Shown here in pieces: positions 54 through 15,314 of a stretch of DNA of 64,000 nucleotides (positions are counted from its first letter, which is position 1; every line of letters begins with the position of its first letter). A program made the translations under genes and the position numbers. The notes under the pieces were generated by a model. The model made no database searches and was not told the DNA's origin. It worked only from the letters and a program-made list of their open reading frames with translations. This stretch comes from Sphingomonadales bacterium (lineage in GTDB: Bacteria; Pseudomonadota; Alphaproteobacteria; Sphingomonadales; Sphingomonadaceae), in the NCBI GenBank assembly GCA_017309275.1, contig JAFKLT010000035.1, positions 105,819-169,818 on the forward strand. Direction: 5' to 3'.

Positions 54-1712
54 GTGGCAGTAATGGGTGGTTCGGAAGGCGAGGCGAGGGCCGAGGGCGA
101 TGGCGTTCCCGTCGTCTTGGATCTTCCTAACGATGAACTCGGCGCTGCGGCTGAAGGGCTTTTCATCTATCTTTGCCCGCGCGCGCTTATCGTCTGTAAC
201 AAGAGTGACCGCGACCGTTCGGGATGGGATTTCGTCGTGGACCTGCCTATGCAGGACGGCATCCTGGACCAGCGCAGCAAGACGACCTGTCATGTCCAGC
301 TAAAGGCCACGAAGTCGGTCGGGACTGGCAATGTCCAACTGCGATTGTCCGCCGCGGACTTGCTTGCGAAAAGCCCGCTTCTCGCGGTCATCATCGTCTT
401 CAGGATGAGGCCCGATGGCACGCCGATCAGGGGCTATGTCGTCCATCTTCTCGGCGCGCCGCTTGAGAAACTGCTCCGCAGGTTGAGGCACGAGCAATTC
501 ATCGGAAACCGCGATATCAACCGACAGTCGATCTCCTTCGACTACCGCAAGCTCGGCCACCCCTTTGAGGTAACGCCGCAGGGCCTTCGCGCAGCGATCG
601 AACGGGCATGCGGCCCAGATCCTGCCGCCTATTCAGCCGAGAAGCTCGGCCAGCTCGCGGAACTGGGTTACGGTGATGACCGCATCGTCGGCGACGTCTT
701 CTTCAGACCGGACAGCGACGAGCAGCTGACCCGCGTCGTGCTCGGCATGGTTCCGCTGAAGCCGTTGGCTATTCAGGCCTTCGACAATCGCTTCGATATG
801 CCGGTGCCCTATGATCACGACATGCTGAACGCGGTTGAGGAGATCATGCTTTCGCCTCCCTCAGCCGGTGGTTGCGAGATCGTGGTGACCGGCGCGCCAC
901 TGACCCCGCCTGCTACCTTCCACGCCGAGATATTCTTCGCGCCTCCCTTCGACGCGCGCCTGCGGATGCTCATCCGTCACGCCGACTTCAGCTTCCTGTT
1001 CCATGAGCGCGAGGCGGATTTCGAGACCAAGGGCATCTTCGAGCAGGGCGGCCGGACGCTCGACGACCTCGTGATGCTGCTCCGCGCAATGGCCAACCTC
1101 GCCTCGGGCGAAGGTGCAATCGTAATGAGCGGTGACGACGGTCGCTTTGGCCCGATCAAACTGCCTATGAGCAATGTGCTAACCGGCCCCGACGTCGAGG
1201 ACCTGCCGGCGCTTTACAAGATCGCCTCCGATTGGCGGCGGTTGCTTGAACTGGCCGGCGTGCGATCCAAGGCCTCCCTCGCGATTGGTGACCTGTGGGA
1301 CAGCCGCTGGATCCAGCTGGCTGCGGATCTGCTTCTTCGGGCAAAGCCAGAGGCTCGGTTCGCATTCGACACGGATACAATCGCGGGGGATGGGGGCGCC
1401 TTAAAGGCGATCTACTTCAACAGTGCCGAGCTCGCGGGCGACGGCATTAGCTACGGCGTTGAGATTGAACTTCAGCCCACCACGCGTGATCAGCGCGTCT
1501 ACAGTTCGGTATCCTTTCGACCAATTGACGTGCGGCCGATGGTCCCCGATCTCTATGAGTACATGGAGGAGCTTGCATCACGATATGAGCATCCAATCAT
1601 GATTCACCCCGATCACCTGCGGGAGGTCGGTCCGGAGCGGCTTGAGGTCGCCGAAGCCGTAGGTAACGGATCGGATTCTGGTCGGGAAACGCCGCTCCCT
1701 AGCCGTCAATGA
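54..1712 (+). CDS. DUF4365-like protein of unknown function
   Basis: A 552-residue protein whose N-terminal third resembles DUF4365-type domains, which have a restriction-endonuclease-like fold. Residues fitting a PD-(D/E)XK-like core are Glu34 (AAEGLF), Asp59 (GWDF) and Gln82/Lys84 (VQLKAT). The remaining 400 residues match no family I recognise; they contain no membrane segment or signal peptide, so a cytosolic protein is likely. The GTG start at 54 is chosen because GGAGGGAGGA ends 4 bp upstream; an in-frame ATG lies 9 bp further in. DUF4365 proteins are common in defence islands, and the Ubl operon follows on the same strand beyond the XRE gene. A role as nuclease effector is inference; the family match rests on motif reading only. 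Confidence 0.6.
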   Translation: MAVMGGSEGEARAEGDGVPVVLDLPNDELGAAAEGLFIYLCPRALIVCNKSDRDRSGWDFVVDLPMQDGILDQRSKTTCHVQLKATKSVGTGNVQLRLSAADLLAKSPLLAVIIVFRMRPDGTPIRGYVVHLLGAPLEKLLRRLRHEQFIGNRDINRQSISFDYRKLGHPFEVTPQGLRAAIERACGPDPAAYSAEKLGQLAELGYGDDRIVGDVFFRPDSDEQLTRVVLGMVPLKPLAIQAFDNRFDMPVPYDHDMLNAVEEIMLSPPSAGGCEIVVTGAPLTPPATFHAEIFFAPPFDARLRMLIRHADFSFLFHEREADFETKGIFEQGGRTLDDLVMLLRAMANLASGEGAIVMSGDDGRFGPIKLPMSNVLTGPDVEDLPALYKIASDWRRLLELAGVRSKASLAIGDLWDSRWIQLAADLLLRAKPEARFAFDTDTIAGDGGALKAIYFNSAELAGDGISYGVEIELQPTTRDQRVYSSVSFRPIDVRPMVPDLYEYMEELASRYEHPIMIHPDHLREVGPERLEVAEAVGNGSDSGRETPLPSRQ

Positions 1713-1784: not shown

Positions 1785-2135
1785 CTACCCGGGTGGCTTC
1801 GTCGATTTGCTGGCGAGAACTTCGATGAACTTCTCTGCAATATCGAGATCATAGGAATTCAACCCGTCCAGATGCTTTTGGAGCTTCTGCGCAGCCACGG
1901 ACGTGCCCACATCCTCGCTGCGCCCGAGCAGATAGTCGGTCGTAACATCGAGCGCGTCGGCGAGCCTCAGCAGATTGTCGAAAGATGGTTTGCGACCGCC
2001 ACCTTCGAAATGCGAGATCGAACTTGCCGGGAGGCCAGTTTTTTTTGCTAGGTCGCCTTGGCTGATTTTCCTTGCATCACGGGCACTTGCAAGCCGGGCC
2101 CGGAAAATCTCACCTGATCCGCTGTTATCGGTCAT
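1785..2135 (-). CDS. XRE-family transcriptional regulator
   Basis: A 116-residue DNA-binding protein with one Cro/CI-type helix-turn-helix at about residues 12-66 (RDARKISQGDLAKKTGLPAS, then SHFEGGGRKPS and a YLLGRSED end typical of the family). The 50 residues after it (SVAAQKLQKHLDGLNSYDLD onward) may mediate dimerisation; no peptidase or sensor domain is visible. It is transcribed divergently from the Ubl-conjugation operon, whose first codon lies 119 bp away, so it is probably the operon's repressor and possibly its own. XRE-type repressors next to defence operons are common. The start is ATG at 2135. Class is secure; target assignment is inference from position. Confidence 0.9.
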   Translation of the reverse strand: MTDNSGSGEIFRARLASARDARKISQGDLAKKTGLPASSISHFEGGGRKPSFDNLLRLADALDVTTDYLLGRSEDVGTSVAAQKLQKHLDGLNSYDLDIAEKFIEVLASKSTKPPG

Positions 2136-2156: not shown

Positions 2157-2211
2157 TTGACATAAACGACATGTTTCCTATTTTAGCGTTATCGACACGA
2201 TCATCATGTCG
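2157..2211 (+). promoter_or_regulatory. Promoter and inverted repeat of the Ubl operon
   Basis: TTGACA at 2157-2162 and TATTTT at 2179-2184, 16 bp apart, form a good sigma70-type promoter pointing at the Ubl operon. CGACATG (2167-2173, between the -35 and -10 boxes) and CATGTCG (2205-2211) are a perfect 7-bp inverted repeat separated by 31 bp. The first arm sits where a bound repressor would block polymerase, so these are candidate operators for the divergent XRE protein. Regulator assignment is inference. Confidence 0.5.
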
Positions 2212-2254
2212 AAAACGTCAACAAGGCGCAAGTGCCTTCGTATGGAGAAATGTT

Positions 2255-2932
2255 GTGACGAACGAGAATTCCATGTCTGGGCGCTTTGCGATCACGATCG
2301 ACGGCGTCGAACATCTGCTGAGCGACCCACTGGTCAAGGGCCGCGACCTGCTCGAAATCGCGGGCCGTATCCCGGTCGACGAGCATCTGCTCTTCTATCG
2401 CCAGGGCGACGGGTTGCTCGAAGACATCAACCTCGCTGAAGAAATCGACCTTCGCGCGAGCGGCAAGGAAGAGTTCAGCTCGGTGAAGGCCGACCGCCTC
2501 TTCTTCCTTGTCGTCGACGGGCGCCGTTTCCCTTGGGGTAAGGATGAGATCAGCGGCGCGGAACTCCGCGTTCTCGCGCTAGTGCCGGCGGCTAAGGATA
2601 TCTTTTTCGACCCGAAGGGCGGCAGGGACGACCTCGTCGAGGATACCGAGAGCGTCACCCTCAAGGGCAAGGAGGTCGAGCACTTCTACACTGCCGACCG
2701 CTCGGACGAACCGCGTTACGTCAATGTTGACCTCAACGGGGACAAGGTCCGGATCCTCGCCGGCGACTATACGACCGAAACGTTGAAGGACGCGCTCGGC
2801 GTATCGGCTGATCTCGACCTCGACGTCGTCGACAAGCAGGGCAGCTTCCGCACCCTGCAGCCCGGCGAGGCGATCCGCGTGATCGCCCGCATGAAGTTCG
2901 TCAGCCACGTTCGCCAGGGCGGCTCCTCGTGA
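2255..2932 (+). CDS. Triple ubiquitin-like (multiubiquitin) protein
   Basis: First gene of a ubiquitin-like conjugation operon. The 225-residue product reads as three beta-grasp domains: about residues 11-77 (FAITIDGVEHLL), 82-146 (LFFLVVDGRRFPW) and 154-223 (RYVNVDLNGDKVRILAGDYT). The first two resemble prokaryotic multiubiquitin domains. The C-terminus is RQGGSS: a Gly-Gly (222-223) followed by two serines, so trimming would be needed to expose the Gly-Gly that an E1 adenylates. The GTG at 2255 is preferred because GGAGAA lies 5 bp upstream; the alternative ATG at 2273 has a weaker site. The stop overlaps the E2-like start as GTGA, indicating translational coupling. Known comparative genomics places such poly-Ubl proteins with E2, JAB and E1 partners; the target of conjugation is unknown. 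Confidence 0.88.
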   Translation: MTNENSMSGRFAITIDGVEHLLSDPLVKGRDLLEIAGRIPVDEHLLFYRQGDGLLEDINLAEEIDLRASGKEEFSSVKADRLFFLVVDGRRFPWGKDEISGAELRVLALVPAAKDIFFDPKGGRDDLVEDTESVTLKGKEVEHFYTADRSDEPRYVNVDLNGDKVRILAGDYTTETLKDALGVSADLDLDVVDKQGSFRTLQPGEAIRVIARMKFVSHVRQGGSS

Positions 2933-3258
2933 ATGCCGAAGATCAGTTCGACCGCATCAAGGCCATCTACCCGGATGCGGTCGCGCTGGTCGAAGGTGGC
3001 CGTACCTTCGTCCATCTGCCCGGGCTGGTGATCGCGACGCGGGCGGGACCGGTGACGCGCGATGCGCTGCTCTGCCCTCACGAGCATAGCGGCTATAAGA
3101 CGCGGCTCTTCCTTAACGCCGCCGTTCCCGGTCATCTCGCAAACTGGACCCAGCACAATCTCTTCACCCGGAACTGGTTTTGCTGGTCCTGGAACTACAT
3201 CGAGGCAGAACAGCCATGGACTTCCATCCTTGCAAATCATCTGGCGGCCTTCCGGTGA
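2929..3258 (+). CDS. E2-like Ubl-conjugating protein
   Basis: A 109-residue protein placed between the Ubl and JAB genes, where prokaryotic E2/UBC-fold proteins occur. It resembles the divergent prokaryotic E2 families: a short alpha/beta core, the segment HSGYKTRLFL (53-62) and a tryptophan-rich C-terminal part with W73, W83, W86 and W88. Its only cysteines are C49 (LLCPHEH) and C85 (NWFCWSW); no eukaryote-like HPN-Cys signature is visible, so the Ubl-accepting residue cannot be named. It starts at GTG 2929 inside the stop of the Ubl gene and ends in another GTGA overlap with the JAB gene. The expected role is to receive activated Ubl from the E1 and pass it to a target. The call depends strongly on gene context. 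Confidence 0.75.
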   Translation: MNAEDQFDRIKAIYPDAVALVEGGRTFVHLPGLVIATRAGPVTRDALLCPHEHSGYKTRLFLNAAVPGHLANWTQHNLFTRNWFCWSWNYIEAEQPWTSILANHLAAFR

Positions 3259-3764
3259 ACGTCCATTTCAAGATCCGCGCCCCGCTTCTCGACGCCATTC
3301 GAGGCGACTTGAGGCGGCGTCACGCCTTCGCATATGAGCGCGTTGGCTGGATTTCGGCGGGCGTGTCGCGCATCGGCGATGGCAGCCTATTTCTCCTCGC
3401 GCAGGATTATCACCCGGTCGAGGACGCCGACTATATCGACGACCCGAGCGTCGGCGCGATGATGGGGTCAAAGGCAATCCGCAAGGCGCTGCAGCGCAGC
3501 TACCAGTCGCGGACTGCGGCGCTGCACGTCCATATGCACGAACATCGCGGCCGTCCCGGGTTCAGCGGCACTGACATTCGCGAGAATGCGAAGTTCGTGC
3601 CCGACTTCTTCAACGTCGCCGCACATGTACCGCATGGCGCGATCGTGCTGAGCGCCGACAATATAGCGGGAGACCTCTGGCTTGCGCGTGGTCAGGGACC
3701 GCTCCCCATTGCCCGGTTCACCGCGGTCGGCGCCACCCTCTGGATGGAAGGAGCGATGTCATGA
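3255..3764 (+). CDS. JAB/JAMM-family metallopeptidase of the Ubl operon
   Basis: A 169-residue zinc isopeptidase of the JAB/MPN+ type. Glu28 (YERVGW) fits the catalytic glutamate; residues 91-107 hold a histidine-rich metal site, HVHMHEH, followed by Ser104 and Asp107 (FSGTD), matching the JAMM HxH...S..D order with slightly altered spacing. In known operons such enzymes process Ubl precursors or remove Ubl from targets; here the Ubl ends Gly-Gly-Ser-Ser, so maturation of that tail is a direct candidate reaction. The GTG start at 3255 overlaps the E2-like stop (GTGA), so I prefer it over upstream in-frame starts lying inside the E2 gene. The end overlaps the E1 start as ATGA. Confidence 0.88.
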   Translation: MNVHFKIRAPLLDAIRGDLRRRHAFAYERVGWISAGVSRIGDGSLFLLAQDYHPVEDADYIDDPSVGAMMGSKAIRKALQRSYQSRTAALHVHMHEHRGRPGFSGTDIRENAKFVPDFFNVAAHVPHGAIVLSADNIAGDLWLARGQGPLPIARFTAVGATLWMEGAMS

Positions 3765-4669
3765 GCCGCTATGACCGGCAGGATTTTCTGGGGCCGGACA
3801 GCGACGCCCGGCTCCGCGCCGTGACGATCGGCATCGTCGGCCTCGGCGGCGGCGGTTCGCATGTGGTGCAGCAGCTCGCCCATCTGGGAATCGGGGGCTT
3901 CGTCTGCGTCGATCCCGATATCGTCGAGGACAGCAATCTCAACCGCCTCGTCGGTGCAACCGCCGCCGACGCCGAGAACGCGACGCCGAAAGCGGATGTC
4001 GCCGAACGAATGGTGCGCGGGCTCGTCGCGGCGCCGCGTTTCCTTGCTCTTGCATGCAGGTGGCAGGATGCAACCGAGGCGCTCGCCGAATGCGACATCA
4101 TCGTCGGCGGCGTCGATTCCTACCGCGAACGGAGCGAACTCGAAGCCTTCTGCCGCCGGATGATGATCCCCTGTATCGATATGGGCATGGACGTTCACGA
4201 CCTCGGCGATCAATTCGCGATCGGCGGCCAGGTCATCCTGTCTTCCCCGGGCGGGCCATGCCTCTGGTGCCTTGGCGTTCTCACCGACGCGCGGCTTGAG
4301 CAAGAGGCGCAGAAATATGGCGCCGCCGGCGGCAAACCGCAGGTGGTCTGGCCGAACGGCGTGCTGGCGTCGTTGGCCGTGGGCCTCGTCATGCAACTGC
4401 TGCTGCCGTGGATGCGCGAACCCGTCGCCAGCGTCTACCTCGAATATGATGGCAATCGTCATCAGGTCGCGACAAGCAATCGCTTAAAGGCGGTCGCCGG
4501 GCAAACATGTCGGCACCATGGCGCATGCGAGACCGGTGACCCGCTGTTCGATGTTCGACGTCCGGCGCCGGCAAGGCAGTCAGAAACGGAACGGGAGGAG
4601 ACGCGCGTGGCGCCGACCAGCGGATCGTGGTGGCGCCGCCTGTTAAGCCAGCTTGGCGTCCGAATCTGA
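3761..4669 (+). CDS. E1-like ThiF-family Ubl-activating enzyme
   Basis: A 302-residue adenylyltransferase with the ThiF/MoeB/E1 Rossmann fold. Visible motifs are RYDRQ at the start, GLGGGGSH (27-34) for nucleotide binding, VDPD (50-53), NLNR (59-62), Lys77 and Asp119 (VDSYRER), all positions conserved in E1-type enzymes. PCLWC (166-170) matches one half of the MoeB-type zinc site; a later TCRHHGAC may supply the rest. It would adenylate the Ubl C-terminus and form a thioester before transfer to the E2-like protein. There is no fused second domain, so it is shorter than eukaryotic E1 and nearer MoeB. ATG 3761 overlaps the JAB stop. Its last 27 bp overlap the convergent peptidase gene. Confidence 0.92.
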   Translation: MSRYDRQDFLGPDSDARLRAVTIGIVGLGGGGSHVVQQLAHLGIGGFVCVDPDIVEDSNLNRLVGATAADAENATPKADVAERMVRGLVAAPRFLALACRWQDATEALAECDIIVGGVDSYRERSELEAFCRRMMIPCIDMGMDVHDLGDQFAIGGQVILSSPGGPCLWCLGVLTDARLEQEAQKYGAAGGKPQVVWPNGVLASLAVGLVMQLLLPWMREPVASVYLEYDGNRHQVATSNRLKAVAGQTCRHHGACETGDPLFDVRRPAPARQSETEREETRVAPTSGSWWRRLLSQLGVRI

Positions 4670-6322
4670 CCCGGCGTCCGGCACTTCGCACTGGTCGAAG
4701 TCGGGCCAATTGCGGACCTTGGGCAGGAAGGGTTCGGCTTCGTCGGTCGTCCGGAAAATGAGGTTATAAGTCTGGGTCGGGCTGTCGGCGTCAAACGTCC
4801 AGAACATCGAAAGCCCGGGCACCTGGACGATCAGCATGCTCTCGCCGAACTTGCTGCCTGTCGCGTCGACGACGACATGGGCACGCACCTTCCGCTGGCA
4901 CTGGTCGAAACCGCGAAGATCGTCGGGAAGCGAGAATTCGGTCACCCACACGTAGCGTGGATATTGGTGTCGGAAGATTTCGAACTTGAAGATATCGGGA
5001 AGCCGATTGCGGAGCGTCCTGCCCTTATAACGCCAGCCATAGGTAAGATAGGTCCGCGCCACGAGTCTTGAAGGCGAAACCGCAAAAAAGGAGGGATCGA
5101 CGGCGATCGCCTTGCCGAGTGCAGCACTGCCTTCGCCGGCGCGCATGCGGGCGAGTTCGCGATACTCTTCGATGCGCTCGACGCAGCTCGCAAGAAAGTC
5201 GCGGCTCAGTGTTTCGGCAACTTCGCCGGTCATGAACACCTTCCCGGGCAGCGGCGTCACTGAATAAACCGCATCCTCTTCGAGCGTCCACGGATAGGCA
5301 CCGGGCGCGCCCGCCTCCAGCGCGTCGTCCTTGTAGACCGGCAGGCGGCAGACCGGCCCCCTCTGGTCGTCGGCGACGATGAGATGCGAAATCAGTTCGG
5401 CCGAGGTCGGGTCATCGGGCAGGTCGTCATCGCCGCGTTCGCGCATCACCCGGCCGATGGCAACGACAGCATGGCCGACCGTCGCGCCGTCCCGGCCCTT
5501 TAGCCCGATCAGCACTGGGATGCCGGAATCGAGATAACGACCAATCACCTCATGCAGAGGCTTGATGCCGACCCCTTGTTCGACCGCGGCCTTGCCGAGA
5601 TCGAAGACCGGATGACGGTCCATCGCCCGTAGCGCCCGGATTATGTTGTCGGGCCTCAGGAACTCCGATCCGGCGGGAAGTGAGCGGGTCACGAAATTGT
5701 CTGTGGGCTTCAGCGCCGCATCATTGATGTCAGGCATCGAGAACCAGGGTCCGCCATGCGCGCGATGGAAATGGCGTCCTGCCATCCAGATTGCCGCCTG
5801 CGCGCAGGCGCCGACGCGTGTGTCTTGCTGGGTGAGCGGGAATCCCGTGACAGTAAGGTCAGCCCCCACGAGGTGAACGGGATAATCCGCCGTTACGTCG
5901 ATGATCGTCGAGGGGTCGGAAGCAATCGCAGCTGCCGAGATTACCGCCGCTGCAACCGGCGCGTGGGAAACGGGGCGCAGCACCACAAAGCCAAGATAGT
6001 CGTCGTCATGTGAAGCGACCTCGCGCGACAGGCCTTCGGGGCTATCGACCTTGCCGAGATACGAAAGGTCACACCCGAAGAAGTGGAGACGCTGGCAATA
6101 TTTGAGATAGGGATGGAATAGGGTCGAATAGAAGGCCGAATAGGCGGCGGAGAAGTCGCGGTCGATATAGGCCCGCTCGAGGAGATAGGCCTTCGCACCC
6201 GCCTCCCTGTAATCGCGTAGCAATTGTTGCAGCAGCGCGGACTCGTCGGCCCCCACCAATTCGGCCAATTCAGTCCAGTCGTCTTCGCCGAGCAGGGGTC
6301 CTACCTGGATTTGAGCCTGCAT
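4643..6322 (-). CDS. Papain/C39-like cysteine peptidase domain protein
   Basis: A 559-residue protein converging on the E1 gene. A central papain-like unit is readable: Gln165-Gln166 as oxyanion-hole candidate, Cys173 in VGACAQAAIW, His284 in TVGHAVVAIG and Asp318/Asp319 in IVADDQ, the Gln-Cys-His-Asp order of papain/C39 folds. About 150 residues before and 230 after it match nothing I recognise. There is no signal peptide or membrane segment, so it acts in the cytosol. It lies 18 bp downstream of a 63-residue ORF on the same strand. Position against a Ubl operon suggests a Ubl-specific protease or a protease effector controlled by conjugation; this is inference. The tail-to-tail 27-bp overlap with the E1 gene suggests the two units have been inherited together. 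Confidence 0.7.
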   Translation of the reverse strand: MQAQIQVGPLLGEDDWTELAELVGADESALLQQLLRDYREAGAKAYLLERAYIDRDFSAAYSAFYSTLFHPYLKYCQRLHFFGCDLSYLGKVDSPEGLSREVASHDDDYLGFVVLRPVSHAPVAAAVISAAAIASDPSTIIDVTADYPVHLVGADLTVTGFPLTQQDTRVGACAQAAIWMAGRHFHRAHGGPWFSMPDINDAALKPTDNFVTRSLPAGSEFLRPDNIIRALRAMDRHPVFDLGKAAVEQGVGIKPLHEVIGRYLDSGIPVLIGLKGRDGATVGHAVVAIGRVMRERGDDDLPDDPTSAELISHLIVADDQRGPVCRLPVYKDDALEAGAPGAYPWTLEEDAVYSVTPLPGKVFMTGEVAETLSRDFLASCVERIEEYRELARMRAGEGSAALGKAIAVDPSFFAVSPSRLVARTYLTYGWRYKGRTLRNRLPDIFKFEIFRHQYPRYVWVTEFSLPDDLRGFDQCQRKVRAHVVVDATGSKFGESMLIVQVPGLSMFWTFDADSPTQTYNLIFRTTDEAEPFLPKVRNWPDFDQCEVPDAGSDSDAKLA

Positions 6323-6340: not shown

Positions 6341-6532
6341 TCAGCCGCGGTTCGCGCCGACGACGAAATTTCCGAGTCGCTGTTCTGCCGCGAGCGTCAG
6401 CTCTTCGAGCCGTTCGATTTCTTCGACGGCCTTCTTCGATGGTCGAAGATTGAAGTGCTTGAATTCCTTGCGATTGGAAATCTCTACACGTCCGTAGGTA
6501 TTGTCCGCGAGTAACTTTATACCATTTTTCAT
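6341..6532 (-). CDS. Small 63-residue protein upstream of the peptidase gene
   Basis: A 63-residue ORF, first gene of the peptidase transcription unit. ATG at 6532 is preceded by a perfect AGGAGG five bases upstream, one of the best ribosome-binding sites in the window, which makes this short ORF credible; a longer in-frame extension to 6733 would run through sequence with poor coding character. The product is charged: a basic stretch (SNRKEFKHFNLRPSKK) followed by a probable helix (AVEEIERLEELTLAAEQRL) and a glycine-containing tail ending ANRG. No family recognised. It could be an inhibitor, a substrate or a small partner of the peptidase; I cannot choose between these. Confidence 0.65.
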   Translation of the reverse strand: MKNGIKLLADNTYGRVEISNRKEFKHFNLRPSKKAVEEIERLEELTLAAEQRLGNFVVGANRG

Positions 6533-6729: not shown

Positions 6730-7770
6730 TCATTGGCCGTTCACCTTGGCTTCGATTTTCTCGGTGGTTGCGATGATTTCGTCGAAGGCTGGAGCCTTGC
6801 CGAAGATCATTGCCTCGGTTGCGGCATAGTCGCGCCGCAGCGCCTCGCGCATCGCCTTGGCCGGCGCGAGGCTGAAACTTCCTTTCGCCGCTGAGGCGAG
6901 GTCGAAGTCGGGTCGATTGAAGAACATGCGGGCATGACGCACGCAGTCGGCGCCAAGTTCATCCTTCTCCATCGCTTCGCGGCCAAGCGTGGTATCCGCA
7001 AGGCAGTGAAGGTCATAATAGTGGCGCGATATACGCTGGCCCTCATTCTTGAGGACGCCTCGGCGATCGAACCAACTGCGCAGCCCGTGCGCGATGACGA
7101 TCTTGTCCCAGAAGGTCCGCTCGGCGTCGATCGTCGTTACTTCGGCAACCGCGAGATCTAGATCCGGCAACTCTTCGGCGACATAGGGCGTGACCGTGGC
7201 TTTGCCGTTCGGATCGAGCGCCGATTTGGCACCAGATTCGATGCGGACGGCTGGCTTGATATAGCTCGCTTCGTCATGTTCGAGCGACGGATACCAGACT
7301 AGCAGGGTCTGGGAGTCGCGGTCGGCCTTGTCGATCTCTACGCGTCCCGCGCCGTTCGTGGCCTCGGCGAGGCGCGCCGCGATATCGGTCTGGAGAGGAC
7401 CGGTGATATAAGTGCTGCAGGCGTCCCGGATGGCGTCGAGTCTCGCTTCACGCTTTTTGCCCGACAACGCTTCGAGCTCGTCGACGCTCGCGGCTTCGCC
7501 GAGATCGTCCCTGTATATGGTGACGTCGATATCCTCGGAAAAGCGCTTGATGAGGCCGTGCGCCTTCGAAAGCGAGGTGCCGCCCTTGAAGAGCAGCCGT
7601 GGCTGGTCGGCGCTGCGCTCATGATAGAGCTGGTCCAGCGTCCAGCAGACCCAGAAATCCTTCTCGACATTGCCGAGCGGCGTGCCAAGCCGGTTCGCGG
7701 CCGACAGGAACAGGTCCCGGCGATCGGCTTCTCTCGACCCGATGATCTGCTGGTAGCCGGCGCGGGTCAC
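6730..7770 (-). CDS. AbiEii/AbiGii-family nucleotidyltransferase toxin
   Basis: A 346-residue toxin of the AbiEii type (nucleotidyltransferase fold), the effector of type IV toxin-antitoxin and abortive-infection modules. Diagnostic segments are EKDFWVCW near residue 36, LLFKGGTSLSKAHGLIKRFS (about 59-78) and SEDIDV, giving the GG-T/S and DxD-like pattern of the nucleotidyltransferase core. Known relatives modify tRNA or related targets to halt growth during phage infection. The GTG start at 7770 overlaps the antitoxin stop (GTGA), so antitoxin is translated first. Length fits the family and the gene appears intact. Autoregulation by the operator array upstream of the antitoxin is likely. Confidence 0.9.
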   Translation of the reverse strand: MTRAGYQQIIGSREADRRDLFLSAANRLGTPLGNVEKDFWVCWTLDQLYHERSADQPRLLFKGGTSLSKAHGLIKRFSEDIDVTIYRDDLGEAASVDELEALSGKKREARLDAIRDACSTYITGPLQTDIAARLAEATNGAGRVEIDKADRDSQTLLVWYPSLEHDEASYIKPAVRIESGAKSALDPNGKATVTPYVAEELPDLDLAVAEVTTIDAERTFWDKIVIAHGLRSWFDRRGVLKNEGQRISRHYYDLHCLADTTLGREAMEKDELGADCVRHARMFFNRPDFDLASAAKGSFSLAPAKAMREALRRDYAATEAMIFGKAPAFDEIIATTEKIEAKVNGQ

Positions 7771-8438
7771 GCGCGCCGCACCTTGGCCGGCGTGACGAGT
7801 TCGCGGAGGAAGTCCTGCATCCAGATCGGAAGTGCGGCGAGGCCGTCCTTCAAGTCCTTGCGAAGGGTCCGGCCGTGCCTTGGGTCCAACAATATCGCGG
7901 AGAGCGCGTCATAGACGCGAGTGCGCTCCTCTTCGCTGCGGTCGATCACATCCTTGAGCCAATAGAGTGCTTGCACGATTCGCATTGCAGGGCGGCCAGC
8001 CCAATAGAGGCGGCTCGGAGCGGCGTGCTTGAAGGTGATTTCTTGGTTGCCGAGCGTGATCGGTTTCAGCCGCGCATCCACCAAGACCTCGATCCGCGCC
8101 GGCACAGCCGTCGTCAGGCCGAGGTCGTTAGCGGCTGTCATGCCGTCGACAACCATGCGGGCTTGGTCCCGGCGAATGACCGCCTCGATGACCGCGCGAT
8201 AATCGGGGACCGAGGGCTTGCCCGTAAGTTCGTTGTGGACGGGGCGATCGTAGAGCCCTCGATCGATGCGGCGGAGTTCGCCAGCCTTGGTCAGACGCTG
8301 TAAATTCTTGTCGATGACCTGCCGGTTGCCGAGGTCGCTGAAGTCTGCCGGGGTCCATGCTTGGCCCAGCTTTCGCTTTACTCGGCGCATGATGTTCCTG
8401 CCCACATCATCGTCGGCTCCGGACGATTTCCCCATCAT
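7767..8438 (-). CDS. AbiEi/DUF6088-type antitoxin
   Basis: A protein of about 223 residues, partner of the AbiEii toxin. It has an N-terminal winged-helix region (PADFSDLGNRQVIDKNLQRL, then GELRRIDRGLYDRP) and a C-terminal antitoxin domain with VPARIEVLVDARLKPITLGN, features of DUF6088/AbiEi proteins. Known AbiEi proteins counteract the toxin and repress their own operon by binding inverted repeats through the winged helix. The ATG at 8438 (second ATG at 8435) is preferred because the frame upstream to 8498 runs through the repeat array; no clear ribosome-binding site marks any candidate, so the start is uncertain. The stop overlaps the toxin start. Confidence 0.87.
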   Translation of the reverse strand: MMGKSSGADDDVGRNIMRRVKRKLGQAWTPADFSDLGNRQVIDKNLQRLTKAGELRRIDRGLYDRPVHNELTGKPSVPDYRAVIEAVIRRDQARMVVDGMTAANDLGLTTAVPARIEVLVDARLKPITLGNQEITFKHAAPSRLYWAGRPAMRIVQALYWLKDVIDRSEEERTRVYDALSAILLDPRHGRTLRKDLKDGLAALPIWMQDFLRELVTPAKVRRA

Positions 8439-8576
8439 GTCCGAAGCATGATACATTTTTCGGACAATGTCTATTTTAATTTGTCCGAAGCATGTCACTT
8501 CGTTCGGACGGCAATGTCCGAACCATGATGTAAACTTCAGACAGCTATGTCCGAAGCATGTTGCACTCTTCGGACA
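8438..8576. promoter_or_regulatory. Four tandem inverted-repeat operators of the abiE-like operon
   Basis: Four copies of TGTCCGAA-N13-TTCGGACA lie at 8438-8466, 8482-8510, 8515-8543 and 8548-8576. The first and fourth are perfect, the second differs at its last base (TTCGGACG) and the third at one base (TTCAGACA). Arms are 21 bp apart (two helical turns) and sites start 44, 33 and 33 bp apart, multiples of 11, so all sites face one side of the helix. The array abuts the antitoxin start, as expected for an autoregulatory operator; the number of sites implies cooperative repression. Confidence 0.85.
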
Positions 8577-8734: not shown

Positions 8735-9472
8735 ATGGCTGATCACAGCGCAATAGAGTGGACCGACGCTACGTGGAACCCCGTCACAGGTTGCACGAAG
8801 ATCACCGCTGGATGCGATAACTGCTATGCCGCGCGCTTCTCCGAGCGGTTCCGTGGAGTGCCGGGCCATCCCTTCGAAAACGGGTTTGACCTGACCCTCC
8901 GGCCCGAGCGCTTGGATCAGCCACTGCGCTGGCGCCGTGGACGGATGATTTTCGTAAACTCGATGAGCGATCTCTTCCATAAGGCCATACCGACATCCTT
9001 CATCGATCGGATATTCGACACGATGGAGGCGGCCAATTGGCACACGTACCAGGTCCTGACCAAGCGGAGCCCGAGGCTCCGGGACTATATGAATGGCCGC
9101 TATGCCGACAGAAGCCCGCCCGCGCACATATGGGTAGGCGTATCCGTCGAAGACCAGAAAGGCGCGGCGCGGGTTGCCCATCTTCGTGCGGCCAAATCCG
9201 CAGTCCGCTTTCTATCGGTGGAACCTCTCATAGGCTCTGTAGGCCCTATTGACCTGAAGGACATACACTGGGTCATAGCGGGCGGAGAAAGCGGTCCCAA
9301 TGCCCGCGTGATGCGGATCGAGTGGGCACGGGAGATACGCGACGCGTGCCGAGAACAGCGCGTGCCTTTCTTCTTCAAACAATGGGGCGGATTTCGACCA
9401 AAGTCTGGCGGACGGGAGCTTGATGGCCGCGAGTGGAGTGAGTGGCCCCGCCTGACGCGGGCGGCCGGCTAA
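8735..9472 (+). CDS. DUF5131 / phage Gp37-Gp68 family protein with three-Cys motif
   Basis: A 245-residue protein of the phage Gp37/Gp68 (DUF5131) family. The N-terminus carries the three-cysteine motif, Cys20-x6-Cys27-x2-Cys30 (TGCTKITAGCDNCYA), reminiscent of iron-sulfur or radical-SAM-like proteins. Other family segments are IEWTDATWNPV, FVNSMSDLFH, VLTKR, WVGVSVE, FLSVEPLIG, VIAGGESG and a closing FFFKQWGG. Biochemical function is not established to my knowledge. It is followed without spacing by tcmP, its usual partner, so the two probably act together. No strong ribosome-binding site precedes ATG 8735. Family call is firm. Confidence 0.93.
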   Translation: MADHSAIEWTDATWNPVTGCTKITAGCDNCYAARFSERFRGVPGHPFENGFDLTLRPERLDQPLRWRRGRMIFVNSMSDLFHKAIPTSFIDRIFDTMEAANWHTYQVLTKRSPRLRDYMNGRYADRSPPAHIWVGVSVEDQKGAARVAHLRAAKSAVRFLSVEPLIGSVGPIDLKDIHWVIAGGESGPNARVMRIEWAREIRDACREQRVPFFFKQWGGFRPKSGGRELDGREWSEWPRLTRAAG

Positions 9473-10642
9473 ATGCTCGATCCGCGCTGGTACGATGGTC
9501 GGGAACAGGCGCTGGTGAAGCACACGTTCCTCGATACCTATATGCCGGCCCAAATTCCCAAGATCGTCAGCTGGGCAAACGAATTCACCTATGTCGATCT
9601 CTTTGCCGGACCGTGGCAGTCAAAGAGCGGCGATTATTCGGACACATCGTTTGGAATTGCCCTCCGCAGGATGACGGAAGCCAAAGCGAAGCAGGCGGAA
9701 CTCGGCCGTAAAGTGACCATGGTGGCTCACCTCGTTGAGAAAGATCCCGCTAATTTTGCAGAGCTAATCGACGCCGTAAAGCGCTTTCCCGACGTTGAAA
9801 TACATTGTCACCCGGGTCAGGCCGAGGATCACGCATCCGCAATCGCGACCGCCATTCCTGCGAGAGCCTTCCGGTTCGTCGTCATAGACCCCAAAGGTGT
9901 TCCCGACGTTCGGAAGTTTCGATGCTTGATCTCGCCGGATCGAACGGAAGTTCTCATGAATTTCATGTTCCAATTCGCAAACCGCTTTGCGGGATCACAG
10001 GATCGGATGCCGACACTCGAAGGATGGCTCGGCGATCTGCAAGAAAATGGCGGTTGGAGAGCGGAGTTCGCTGAACTGCGCGGATCCGAAAGAGAAGCGG
10101 CCATTTCCGAGCGCGCCCGCCAAGCGTTGCGGCGCATGGGGGACTATAAATTCGCGCCGGCGTTAACCGTCGACGAGACGGCGGTCGATCGGCCCTTGTA
10201 CAAGCTCATTTACCTGACTCGGCACCCAGCCGGCATCAAGGTGTTCCGTGACGCACACAGAAAGTCTCTCGAGACCCAAGCGACCTACAAATCGGCGAAA
10301 AAGGCGGAGACGCGGAGGGTTGCAAGCGGAATGAACGACATGTTTGCTGGCCAATCTGCCATGGAACCGGGCGAGCGAAGCGCTCGCGAAATATCCCAAG
10401 GCGAGGCGGCCGCGCGGTCAACGATGCTTCAAATCCTGTCGGAGAGCTCGGCCGATTTGAAATGGAAAGATGTCTGGCCGCGTGTGTTGGATCTTTGCGC
10501 GGTTACTTACGGCGCCCTCGGTAACATAGCTAACGACTTAAGGAAGCGCGGGCTCATAATTGTCCCTGCGTGGAGCGGCGACGTGTTGAGGCGCCCGAAG
10601 GATGATTTCTCTATCAAAATTGCTCCACACCTCGCGCCTTAA
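9473..10642 (+). CDS. tcmP: Three-Cys-motif partner protein TcmP
   Basis: A 389-residue protein of the three-Cys-motif partner family, defined by co-occurrence with Gp37/Gp68-type proteins such as the gene just upstream. Recognisable features are LVKHTFLDTYMP near the start, YVDLFAGPW (about 43-51), a methyltransferase-like glycine/Asp strand, then VEKDP and FVVIDPKG strands, which suggest a Rossmann fold. The start ATG follows the upstream stop codon directly, so the pair is one transcription unit with coupled translation. Function is unknown; the pair is often found in mobile or defence contexts, as here next to a toxin-antitoxin module. No truncation is seen. Confidence 0.92.
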   Translation: MLDPRWYDGREQALVKHTFLDTYMPAQIPKIVSWANEFTYVDLFAGPWQSKSGDYSDTSFGIALRRMTEAKAKQAELGRKVTMVAHLVEKDPANFAELIDAVKRFPDVEIHCHPGQAEDHASAIATAIPARAFRFVVIDPKGVPDVRKFRCLISPDRTEVLMNFMFQFANRFAGSQDRMPTLEGWLGDLQENGGWRAEFAELRGSEREAAISERARQALRRMGDYKFAPALTVDETAVDRPLYKLIYLTRHPAGIKVFRDAHRKSLETQATYKSAKKAETRRVASGMNDMFAGQSAMEPGERSAREISQGEAAARSTMLQILSESSADLKWKDVWPRVLDLCAVTYGALGNIANDLRKRGLIIVPAWSGDVLRRPKDDFSIKIAPHLAP

Positions 10643-13102: not shown

Positions 13103-13234
13103 ATGCCGCTTTCCACCGCCCAGTCGCTCGGATGGAGCCTCGCCCGGACCATGATGACCGTGATCATCCTCATCGAGACCAGCGCCGGATATTCGGTCAT
13201 GCCGCTCGACTGGTCGAAGGAACTCAGCCAATGA
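13103..13234 (+). CDS. 43-residue ORF coupled to trbG, possible trbF remnant
   Basis: A 43-codon ORF with CAGGAG 8 bp before ATG 13103; its stop overlaps the trbG start (ATGA), so it is translated and coupled. A hydrophobic middle (TMMTVIILIETSAGYSVM) could span the membrane. The last residues, LDWSKELSQ, resemble the C-terminus of TrbF/VirB8-type proteins, and trbF is the normal gene before trbG. It may therefore be the fused end of a deleted trbF. The alternative is a genuine small membrane protein of the element. The TrbF resemblance is from memory of the family and covers few residues. Confidence 0.5.
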   Translation: MPLSTAQSLGWSLARTMMTVIILIETSAGYSVMPLDWSKELSQ

Positions 13235-14085
13235 CGCGATATCCTCTGCTTCCGATCGCACTCGGAGCCATGCTGTCCCTCCTTGCGGCGCCCGCCGCGG
13301 CGAGCGAGGCCGCCGATCCCCGCCAGCGCGTCGGCCGCGCCAACGCCGAGGCGCGCGTGCAGCCCGACCGGCAAGGCTATCGGAACGCCATCCAGCAATA
13401 TGCCTGGTCCGAAGGCGCGCTCTTTCAGGTCTATGCTGCGCCAGGGCAGGTCACCGATATCGTCCTTCAGGAAGGCGAACAGCTCGTCGGCCCGGGGCCG
13501 GTCGCCGCGGGCGACACGGTGCGCTGGATCATCGGCGATACGGTCAGCGGGACCGGGGCCCGGCGGCGCGTGCATATTCTGGCGAAACCCACCCGATCCG
13601 ATATCGCCACGAATCTCATCATCAACACCGACCGGCGCACCTATCATGTCGAGCTGCGCGCGACCGCCGCGGCCTATATGGCATCGGTATCCTGGACCTA
13701 TCCCGCCGATGAGCTGATCGCCTTGCAGCTTGCCGAGGCCGAGGCGGCGAGGGTGGCGCCCGTTGCCGGGGCGATCGATCTCGCCGCGCTCAACTTCCGC
13801 TACCGCATCGCAGGCGACAAGGCCGCGTGGCGGCCGGTGCGCGCCTTCGACGACTCGCGCCAGCTAATCATCGAATTCGGTGAGGATATCGCCACCGGCG
13901 ATATGCCGCCACTCTTCGTCATCGGCGGCAGCGGCGAGGCAGAGCTTGTCAACTACCGGGTGCAGGGCCGCTACATGATCGTCGACCGCCTTTTCGAGCG
14001 CGGCGAACTCCGCTTGGGCGCCGGAAAGCAGGCCCGCGTCGTTCGGATCAAGCGTGAAATGCCGCGCCGCCGGGGGCGGTCGTGA
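13231..14085 (+). CDS. trbG: Conjugal transfer protein TrbG (VirB9-like)
   Basis: A 284-residue periplasmic/outer-membrane component of the Trb mating channel. A signal peptide spans about residues 1-23 (LLPIALGAMLSLLAAPAAAS). The VirB9-family N-domain is seen in YAWSEGALFQVYAAPGQVTDIVLQEGE and RRVHILAKPTRSDIATNLII (each quoted in part), followed by the YHVELR strand and a linker; the C-terminal domain contains FDDSRQLIIEF and NYRVQGRYMIVDRLF. ATG 13231 overlaps the stop of the 43-residue ORF, and the end overlaps trbI as GTGA. The gene is full length, but with most trb genes absent no working mating channel is encoded here. Confidence 0.94.
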   Translation: MTRYPLLPIALGAMLSLLAAPAAASEAADPRQRVGRANAEARVQPDRQGYRNAIQQYAWSEGALFQVYAAPGQVTDIVLQEGEQLVGPGPVAAGDTVRWIIGDTVSGTGARRRVHILAKPTRSDIATNLIINTDRRTYHVELRATAAAYMASVSWTYPADELIALQLAEAEAARVAPVAGAIDLAALNFRYRIAGDKAAWRPVRAFDDSRQLIIEFGEDIATGDMPPLFVIGGSGEAELVNYRVQGRYMIVDRLFERGELRLGAGKQARVVRIKREMPRRRGRS

Positions 14086-15314
14086 CCGGGCCGGCAAGCG
14101 AGGCGGTGGCGCCCGCCGACGTGCCGGAAGCGGGCGAGCGCACGGCGCCCGGCCCGGAGGTCGATCCTTTTCGGCTACGCGGCGACACGCCGCGGGTCAT
14201 GCGGCTTTCGCGCAAGGCGCTCGCGATGATCGGCGCTGCCGGCGGCACCGCGATCGGCGGCGCTCTGCTCTGGGCGCTGCAACCCGTAGCCCCGAAGACC
14301 GCCGAGAATCTCTACACGGCCGATGGAGCGAATCGCGCCGAAGTCGTCACCGGTGCGCCCGCCGACTATGGCAAGGTGCCGAAGCTCGGACCGCCGCTAC
14401 CCGGCGATCTCGGGCGACCGATCGTCTCGGCGCAGCAGAACGGCGAGACGATCCCGGTGCCGCCGATGGGAAATCCGCCCGCCGGCGGGCGCTCACCCGC
14501 CGACAAGGCGCGCGATCGGGCGCGGCTGGAGCGCGAGGCCGCCACGGCGAGCCGGATATTCCTTGGAGGAGGGACCTCGGGCGCGCCGGTGGCAGACGCG
14601 CAGCGTGGATCGATCGAACCGTCCGCCGCGACCATGTCGGCACCCGAAGGCGGCGCGCGGACTCCGGCGGCGGCGCGGCGCGCCTTTCTCGCGGGCGGCT
14701 CCGCCGAACCGTTCGAGAGTGCCGAGCGCCTTCATGCGCCTGCTTCGCCATACATCCTTCAGGCGGGAAGTCTCATTCCGGCCGCGCTGATCACTGGGAT
14801 CAGGTCCGACCTTCCCGGACAGGTCACGGCGCAGGTGACCCAGAATGTCTACGATAGCCCGACGGGTCGCATTCTCCTCATTCCGCAGGGTGCCCGGCTG
14901 ATCGGCGACTATGACAGCGAAATATCCGTGGGGCAGGAGCGCGTCTTGCTGGCCTGGAACCGGTTGATCCTGCCCGGTGGCCGATCGATCCGGCTCGATC
15001 GTCAGCCCGGCGCCGATGCGCGGGGCATGGCGGGGATTGCCGATCGCACCGACCATCATTGGGGGTCGATGCTGCGCGCGGCGCTCGTCTCTTCGTTGCT
15101 CGGCGTCGGAGCCGAACTTGGCTCGGACGGGGATGATGCGCTCGTGCGGGCGCTTCGCGACGGGCCGCAGGATACGGTCAACCAGTCGGGACGGCGGCTC
15201 GTCGAGCGTCAGATGAACATCCCGCCAACCCTCACGATCCGCCCCGGCTTCGCTTTGCGGGTCCTTGTCACACGCGATCTGATACTCGAACCGCCGGCGG
15301 GTGCGGCCCCATGA
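14082..15314 (+). CDS. trbI: Conjugal transfer protein TrbI (VirB10-like)
   Basis: A 410-residue VirB10/TrbI protein that would bridge inner and outer membranes in the mating channel. It has a cytoplasmic N-terminus, one membrane segment near residues 45-65 (ALAMIGAAGGTAIGGALLWA), a proline/alanine-rich periplasmic linker, and the C-terminal barrel domain with LQAGSLIPAALITGIRSDLP, GQVTAQVTQNVYDSPTG and LLIPQGARLIGDYDS. The GTG start at 14082 overlaps the trbG stop; the end overlaps the DUF2274 start (ATGA). The order trbG-trbI-DUF2274 is the normal 3' end of this trb cluster type. Full length and apparently intact. Confidence 0.95.
   Translation: MTGPASEAVAPADVPEAGERTAPGPEVDPFRLRGDTPRVMRLSRKALAMIGAAGGTAIGGALLWALQPVAPKTAENLYTADGANRAEVVTGAPADYGKVPKLGPPLPGDLGRPIVSAQQNGETIPVPPMGNPPAGGRSPADKARDRARLEREAATASRIFLGGGTSGAPVADAQRGSIEPSAATMSAPEGGARTPAAARRAFLAGGSAEPFESAERLHAPASPYILQAGSLIPAALITGIRSDLPGQVTAQVTQNVYDSPTGRILLIPQGARLIGDYDSEISVGQERVLLAWNRLILPGGRSIRLDRQPGADARGMAGIADRTDHHWGSMLRAALVSSLLGVGAELGSDGDDALVRALRDGPQDTVNQSGRRLVERQMNIPPTLTIRPGFALRVLVTRDLILEPPAGAAP

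Follow-up and report, generated by a model that had tools for sequence, protein, structure and literature searches.

A four-gene operon behind a divergent regulator gene

The DNA analysed here, hereafter the window, is a stretch of 64,000 nucleotides from a member of the Sphingomonadales (contig JAFKLT010000035.1, positions 105,819 to 169,818), and it carries an operon of four genes, on the plus strand at 2255-4669, whose products resemble the components of ubiquitin conjugation. The first gene (2255..2932) encodes a BubA-like ubiquitin-like protein (Ubl) of 225 aa with three beta-grasp domains; the second (2929..3258) a BubB-like, E2-like protein of 109 aa with a predicted ubiquitin-conjugating (UBC) fold; the third (3255..3764) a JAMM/JAB peptidase of 169 aa; and the fourth (3761..4669) a BubD-like, E1-like adenylating enzyme of the ThiF family, 302 aa in length. 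Stop and start codons overlap by 4 bp at every junction. The Ubl gene opens with GTG at 2255, which we regard as a sound start because the aligned codon is ATG in a related locus of Sphingopyxis sp. H115 (L033); it is GTG in L032. Within the 5.1-Mb assembly of the source genome, this is the single Multi_ubiq locus.

Divergent from the operon lies a gene for a putative CapH-like repressor of the XRE/Cro type (1785..2135, minus strand), whose product matches HTH_3 at 2e-14 and has capH as its best PADLOC match (1e-17). A motif scan placed a putative sigma-70 promoter, TTGACA-16-TATTTT, at 2157..2184 on the plus strand, although the search returned one such motif against 1.4 expected by shuffling and is weak alone. 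Overlapping the promoter is an imperfect inverted repeat (2157..2221; arms 2157-2173 and 2205-2221, 76% complementary), a candidate operator. The promoter is largely, and the repeat partly, conserved in 4 sphingomonad loci. An earlier sequence-only reading had described four genes with 4-bp overlaps behind a divergent XRE gene, encoding a triple beta-grasp protein, an E2-like protein, a JAMM peptidase and a ThiF/E1 enzyme. The coordinates of the open reading frames (ORFs) bear out this layout, and all four assignments stood up in the analyses below, that of the E2-like protein with weak Foldseek E-values.

Recurrence and distribution of the gene set

An E1 alignment was scanned against one genome per species (84,980 species), giving 159 stretches, of which 138 encode relatives. 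Since only the best 80 were kept, this set leans to close relatives; L027-L030, among them, are near-copies of the window. Adding the window and five plasmid loci picked for their four-gene arrangement (L017, L018, L019, L021 and L022, of ten from a Ubl search) brought the set to 86 loci; the choice of plasmid loci does not affect counts restricted to the 80 genome loci. The plasmid loci left out were L020, with JAB and E1 fused; L023, with Ubl and E2 fused and JAB and E1 apart; L024, with a Ubl-E2 fusion and one ThiF protein; and L025 and L026, with a Ubl and a ThiF protein. Residue conservation was counted after the removal of six near-copies.

The components recur together. In the 80 genome loci, which were picked by E1 alone, hidden Markov models (HMMs) recognised JAB in 80, E2 in 79 and Ubl in 78 (86/86, 85/86 and 84/86 overall); none of these three proteins was part of the selection patterns. 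With raw ORF starts, 74 of the 86 loci show the gene order Ubl-E2-JAB-E1, and trimming the starts by HMM raises this to 80. JAB and E1 are fused in 3/86 loci (L098, L099 and L106), and with these three counted, 77 of the 80 genome loci hold the ordered four-gene set. The exceptions are L089, in which the Ubl is split and the JAB short, and L074 and L078, both without a recognisable Ubl and the latter also without E2. Overlaps of the NTGA type were found at 64/83, 79/84 and 53/82 junctions, the window excluded.

The hosts belong to the Pseudomonadota, Acidobacteriota, Verrucomicrobiota, Planctomycetota, Bacteroidota, Nitrospirota, Thermodesulfobacteriota and Melainabacteria. The source genome is probably that of a Sphingopyxis, since a 100% identical E1 is present in Sphingopyxis sp. 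H053, L1A2A and LC363. Nearer to the window the distribution is patchy: E1 matches (E up to 1e-40) occurred in 4 of 296 genomes of the order and Multi_ubiq in 8 of 289 genomes of the class, the source genome included in both counts, and 14 of 16 listed genomes of the genus, again with the source genome among them, lacked an E1 match. In an E1 tree computed without the six near-copies, the group with split JAB and E1 genes stood apart from five classical E1s of type 6e with support of 99/99, and the fused JAB-E1 forms of Bacteroidota fell inside it. A MoeB-like protein of the source genome, used as outgroup, had a very long branch and also fell inside the group; because of the long branches and the misplaced outgroup, we read this tree as unrooted.

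A triple-domain Ubl with a Gly-x-Ser-Ser tail

The Ubl matches Multi_ubiq (PF14452) in two stretches at 6e-25, and its structure model (predicted local distance difference test, pLDDT, 90.9; predicted template modelling score, pTM, 0.69) has beta-grasp units at about residues 11-66, 83-148 and 155-219. By sequence, its relatives in the PDB are 8u38 and 9d5b (M. brachiatum), 9cd2 (E. coli ZDHYS365) and 9d59 and 9d5a (Citrobacter), with the best matches extending to about residue 164-180, a point ahead of or within the third unit. Foldseek matched the model to 9cd2 at 1.2e-18 and also to 9d5a, 9d5b and 8u38; the structural alignments extended over 216-218 columns to 9cd2 and 9d5a and about 145 to the M. 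brachiatum entries. One scan of viral contigs with this single sequence gave no close relative.

At its C terminus the Ubl reads ...RQ-G222-G-S-S. Among 78 aligned sequences, G222 is kept in all, S224 in 76 and S225 in 74, and position 223 is variable; the Ubl ORFs of L076, L086 and L097 extend beyond this G-x-S-S tail. Because the Ubl of Synechocystis ends ...TTEG, and that of Shinella passes from TTEG into a fused E2, the mature end of the window protein would be Gly222. In 9 of 84 loci the Ubl is no longer than 115 aa and aligns to the third domain only, which suggests that this domain is the essential one and, judged from these alignments, probably the working module. Triple Ubls are reported by Gong et al. 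2025 to form Ca2+-dependent filaments.

An E2-like protein and an E1 without a conserved catalytic cysteine

The AlphaFold2 model of the E2-like protein (pLDDT 94.2, pTM 0.88, from 64 aligned sequences) consists of a helix, a beta meander and a C-terminal helix, a topology that in the model is UBC-like. Among the best 50 of 159 Foldseek matches, the highest TM-score belonged to Citrobacter BubB (9eae_C, 0.65/0.57, E-value 0.49); TSG101 UEV domains scored 0.35-0.51 and alpha-crystallin domains about 0.2. No family match was obtained among the Pfam, PADLOC and NCBIfam models, nor did a six-row profile match PDB sequences. Imp4 was considered as a relative and dropped, since its single-sequence match (0.004) was lost with the profile. 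The profile searches proposed with the sequence-only reading were fruitful for the Ubl, through Multi_ubiq, and came to nothing for the E2-like protein, Prok-E2_E included.

Four residues of the E2-like protein (Y56, W73, W83 and S87) are invariant in 79 of 79 sequences, and no column is Cys in at least 50% of them. The E2s of Synechocystis and Shinella, which match Prok-E2_E at 9e-56 and 9e-47, share with it a W-x-x-W-S motif in what is apparently the same place.

In the third protein, E28, H93 and H95 (H-x-H), S104 and D107 are each kept in 78-80 of 80 sequences, the pattern of a JAMM peptidase, predicted to process or deconjugate the Ubl. The window protein has no match in Pfam, and Prok-JAB matched 8 of 45 aligned members weakly, at best at 0.0024. 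With hhalign, it aligned to the JAB portion of the fused JAB-E1 protein of Synechocystis at 90% probability; a six-row profile compared with the PDB at E up to 0.1 matched no chain, not even Citrobacter BubCD.

The E1 matches ThiF (PF00899) at 6e-29, a single such match in its 302 aa, and among solved E1 structures Citrobacter BubCD is nearest to it in sequence (3e-14 with the single sequence, 1.7e-20 with a profile). Cys167, Cys170 and Cys250 are present in 80/80 sequences and, with H252, form a C167xxC170...C250xH252 pattern that is probably a zinc site. The crossover loop at residues 183-205, which we take to be the region where ThiF and MoeB proteins have their Cys, contains no conserved Cys.

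CapH, CapP and an exonuclease upstream of related operons

A gene for a CapP-like peptidase was found within 2.5 kb upstream in 55 of the 86 loci, 47 of these with a detected helix-turn-helix (HTH) gene. An HTH gene alone was found in 10/86, neither gene in 14/86, and flanks were short in 7/86. The window and those Sphingopyxis loci with enough flank have the repressor alone, and the Novosphingobium locus L032 has both repressor and CapP. In the neighbourhood tally no CapP gene was found beside the XRE gene of the window; four matches to the M78 family lie on other contigs of the source genome.

An ExoI-like exonuclease gene is present upstream in 15/86 loci (L021, L044, L052, L055, L058, L060, L062-L067, L070 and L095, and also L075), and in 14 of them the gene comes after CapP in the same orientation; an HTH gene was detected in 12 of these. 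Because CapP is activated by single-stranded DNA (ssDNA), as stated in the accessible text of PMC13373217, this nuclease might tune the CapP signal.

A proposed serine cycle and its alternatives

We consider it reasonably likely that the window encodes a Bub-type, 6e-like conjugation operon of a distinct 'split' clade that works through a JAMM-E1-E2 serine cycle. The JAMM protein would cut x-S-S, the final three residues, off the triple-domain Ubl and expose Gly222, which the ThiF-type E1 would then adenylate with ATP. As a Cys at the catalytic position is conserved in neither enzyme, E1 or E2, we propose a hydroxyl route, in which the Ubl would pass to the E2-like protein as an oxyester, with Ser87 as the best candidate. 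In the last step the Ubl would be attached either to a target or to a second Ubl, a linkage that the JAMM protein could undo. The third beta-grasp domain alone may be the conjugated module, with the first two Multi_ubiq domains as an optional assembly part, and the CapH-like XRE protein would repress the operon. Bub enzymes are reported by Ye et al. 2026 to act through oxyesters; our search of the literature from 2023 on gave no match for an oxyester mechanism in bacterial ubiquitin-like operons.

More speculatively, and we would sooner doubt this than assert it, the loci may belong to a widespread separate branch without catalytic Cys in E1 or E2. A JAMM-cut Gly-x-Ser-Ser tail would go from the adenylate to the invariant E2 Ser, Multi_ubiq would have been added later to a family with the third beta-grasp domain, and a CapH-CapP-exonuclease switch would operate in some loci, its nuclease tuning the ssDNA signal.

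A defence role for the operon is plausible. It may instead be an induced stress or plasmid-maintenance system that is not antiphage, in which CapH/CapP answers DNA damage generally; we give this alternative considerable weight while thinking it somewhat less than probable. Relatives of the Ubl occur on 114 plasmid records, in this and other operon types, conjugation genes lie at 13.1-15.3 kb in the window, and in the accessible text of PMC13373217 protection from phage by Bub operons is not demonstrated. Against this stand the loci with CapP and IetAS-like neighbours, though distal control genes match defence models too.

Several observations weigh against the serine cycle itself. Foldseek E-values for the E2 model, among the best 50 of 159 matches, are 0.19 at best and none reaches 0.001; Prok-E2_E (PF14462) matched 0 of 6 E2 proteins at E up to 1; and hhalign paired the E2-like protein with the Synechocystis E2 at only 11% probability. 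In the E2-like protein, C49 comes nearest to a conserved Cys (37/79), and in the E1, C111 is present in 75/80 and C131 in 51/80 sequences; with these three common, a Cys route at another position is possible. E1 blocks 1-9 and 193-200 served as search patterns, and conservation and the absence of Cys there result partly from selection. S87 could have a structural role, with the E2-like protein serving as the kind of inactive adaptor that Iyer et al. suggested for type 6e.

This last point leads to an alternative that we judge unlikely but still serious, namely that the E2-like protein is a dead adaptor resembling UEV or RWD domains and that the E1 moves the Ubl straight from the adenylate to targets, in the style of ThiF/MccB. 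It accords with the lack of a conserved Cys, with the structural matches to the UEV domain of TSG101, an inactive E2 variant, and with the inactive label that Iyer et al. gave the 6e E2 (accessible text of PMC1779556). An adaptor of this kind sits less well with a loop Ser that, together with W83, is invariant in 79/79 sequences, and with an E2 gene retained in 79 of the 80 loci that were found by E1.

A BilABCD system acting on phage virions through a canonical Cys cascade is highly improbable and, as judged from the protein sequences, already contradicted: the component order Ubl-E2-JAB-E1 is the same and PDB 8u38, labelled Ubl-BilA, is related to the window Ubl, but the window E1 has neither a second adenylation domain nor a Cys domain, its E2 has no conserved Cys and hence no CEHH motif, and its Ubl has three domains and not two. 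Just as little credence goes to sulfur-carrier or small-molecule synthesis of the ThiS/MoaD-ThiF/MoeB kind without conjugation, which a single-domain ThiF-like E1 with a CxxC...CxH site would suit, but which a Ubl ending in G-x-S-S rather than GG, a UBC-fold partner and a distribution too patchy for a biosynthetic operon (14 of the 16 listed genus genomes are without an E1 match) speak against.

The standard account of ubiquitin transfer is a relay between cysteines, and a four-protein set with a JAMM peptidase and without a conserved catalytic Cys would allow the ester route to be tested in one tube. The analysis also provides annotation for two families, as the E2 and JAMM genes are still 'hypothetical' in the five plasmid records.

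Neighbouring genes

The sequence-only reading had proposed looking for defence genes near homologues of the operon. We compared 110 ORFs proximal to the operon with 110 distal ones, sampled from pools of 164 and 191 in 33 loci. Peptidase_M78/CapP, exonuclease and IetA were commoner close to the operon than far from it; matches to PADLOC models, largely redundant, numbered 81 for distal and 62 for proximal genes. Because distal genes matched more of these models, we claim no overall excess of defence genes. An AAA ATPase and an S8 subtilase, a pair similar to the IetAS defence system, lie downstream of E1 on the same strand in 10/86 loci (for example L017, 9507-12886), and IetA models matched 3 of the 110 proximal proteins.

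Convergent with the E1 gene, and overlapping it by 27 bp, is a gene for a 559-aa protein without a family match (4643-6322, minus strand). Among 10 homologues its Cys173, His284 and Asp319 are invariant, presumably a papain-like peptidase motif. A small ORF of 52-76 aa ends 12-84 bp upstream of each of these 10 homologues; in the window it lies at 6341-6532 on the minus strand, where an internal Met within a 130-aa ORF gives a product of about 63 aa. Homologues of the 559-aa protein adjoin Ubl operons in the window clade and in L048, L069, L072, L112 and L025. The case for this protein as a pathway component was weakened, in that homologues found without the operon adjoin a Ubl operon in 0 of 18 genome loci and 2 of 4 plasmid loci; of the 18 loci, 16 are regions from 15 genomes, out of 20 other genomes of the phylum with a match, and 2 come from genomes of the class, and several end near the gene, so that a partner could be cut off.

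Directly beyond the 559-aa neighbour, an AbiEii/AbiEi-type pair occupies 6730-8498 on the minus strand and is found also in L027-L029, L031 and L032. It is followed on the plus strand by a DUF5131 gene and then a gene for a 389-aa protein without a Pfam match (8735-10642), and by the conjugal transfer genes CagX and TrbI (13132-15314), which suggest that the operon is on or beside a conjugative element. On the side where relatives carry CapP, the window encodes a 552-aa protein without a family match (54-1712, plus strand), with homologues, among the 86 loci and besides the window, only in L027-L029. On this same side, L031 has an ORF with HEPN and Pol-beta nucleotidyltransferase domains.

Comparison with known systems

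The window operon is filed as a variant of the Bub/6e class, one without the JAB-E1 fusion and the accessory protein; treating 6e and Bub as one class is our reading of their shared parts. In the accessible text of PMC1779556, type 6e operons have one to three Ub-like domains (the third being optional), an E2/RWD-like protein without Cys that is called inactive, a JAB that is mostly fused to E1, with unfused cases that have an adjacent JAB gene, and a metal-binding protein. With type 6e, for example the pSYSX operon of Synechocystis, the window operon shares the component classes, the Cys-less E2 and the optional third Ubl domain. It differs in that the JAB is not fused to the N terminus of the E1 as in most 6e members, the two being encoded by separate overlapping genes, and in that its E2 is unmatched by Prok-E2_E. 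An accessory DUF6527-like neighbour, on the assumption that DUF6527 is the metal-binding protein of Iyer et al., was found in 0/86 loci with the two DUF6527 proteins of the classical operons L020 and L024 as seeds.

Bub of Citrobacter (BubA/BubB/BubCD; PDB 9d59, 9d5a, 9ea4, 9ea5 and 9eae) likewise has a triple beta-grasp Ubl, a UBC-fold E2 and a ThiF-type E1, and many relatives of the window operon have CapH/CapP-type regulators as well. In contrast to Citrobacter Bub, the window JAMM protein comes from its own gene, the E2 is only distantly related, and the tail is G-x-S-S. The accessible text of PMC13373217 counts 544 Bub operons, 219 with CapW or CapH and CapP.

The sequence-only reading had also set the operon apart from Bil and CBASS systems, and its single 302-aa ThiF E1 and an E2 without conserved Cys do distinguish it from the anatomy of BilD and BilB. 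BilABCD shares the gene order and functional roles but, according to the accessible text of PMC11354881, has a canonical Cys E1 and E2, a two-part E1 (BilD, which has a pair of adenylation domains plus a Cys domain), a CEHH motif in BilB and a two-domain Ubl. Type II CBASS shares with the window operon the ThiF E1 resemblance of Cap2 (PADLOC E1-E2 models at 1e-10) and the JAB peptidase Cap3, but the window E1 and E2 are unfused and no CD-NTase or effector was found in the operon; neither a CD-NTase nor a Cap2-type E2-E1 fusion was found among the four operon genes and six neighbours scanned. The triple Ubl, which that reading had taken as a further distinguishing mark, is not new, since structures have been solved for relatives from Citrobacter, M. 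brachiatum and E. coli, and since operons combining a polyUbl with a Cys-less E2, a JAB and an E1 were predicted in 2006 (PMC1779556) and now go by the name Bub (PMC13373217). What may be new is a clearly delimited clade in which the JAMM and E1 genes are unfused, the E2 goes unrecognised by Pfam and the catalytic outline is cysteine-free.

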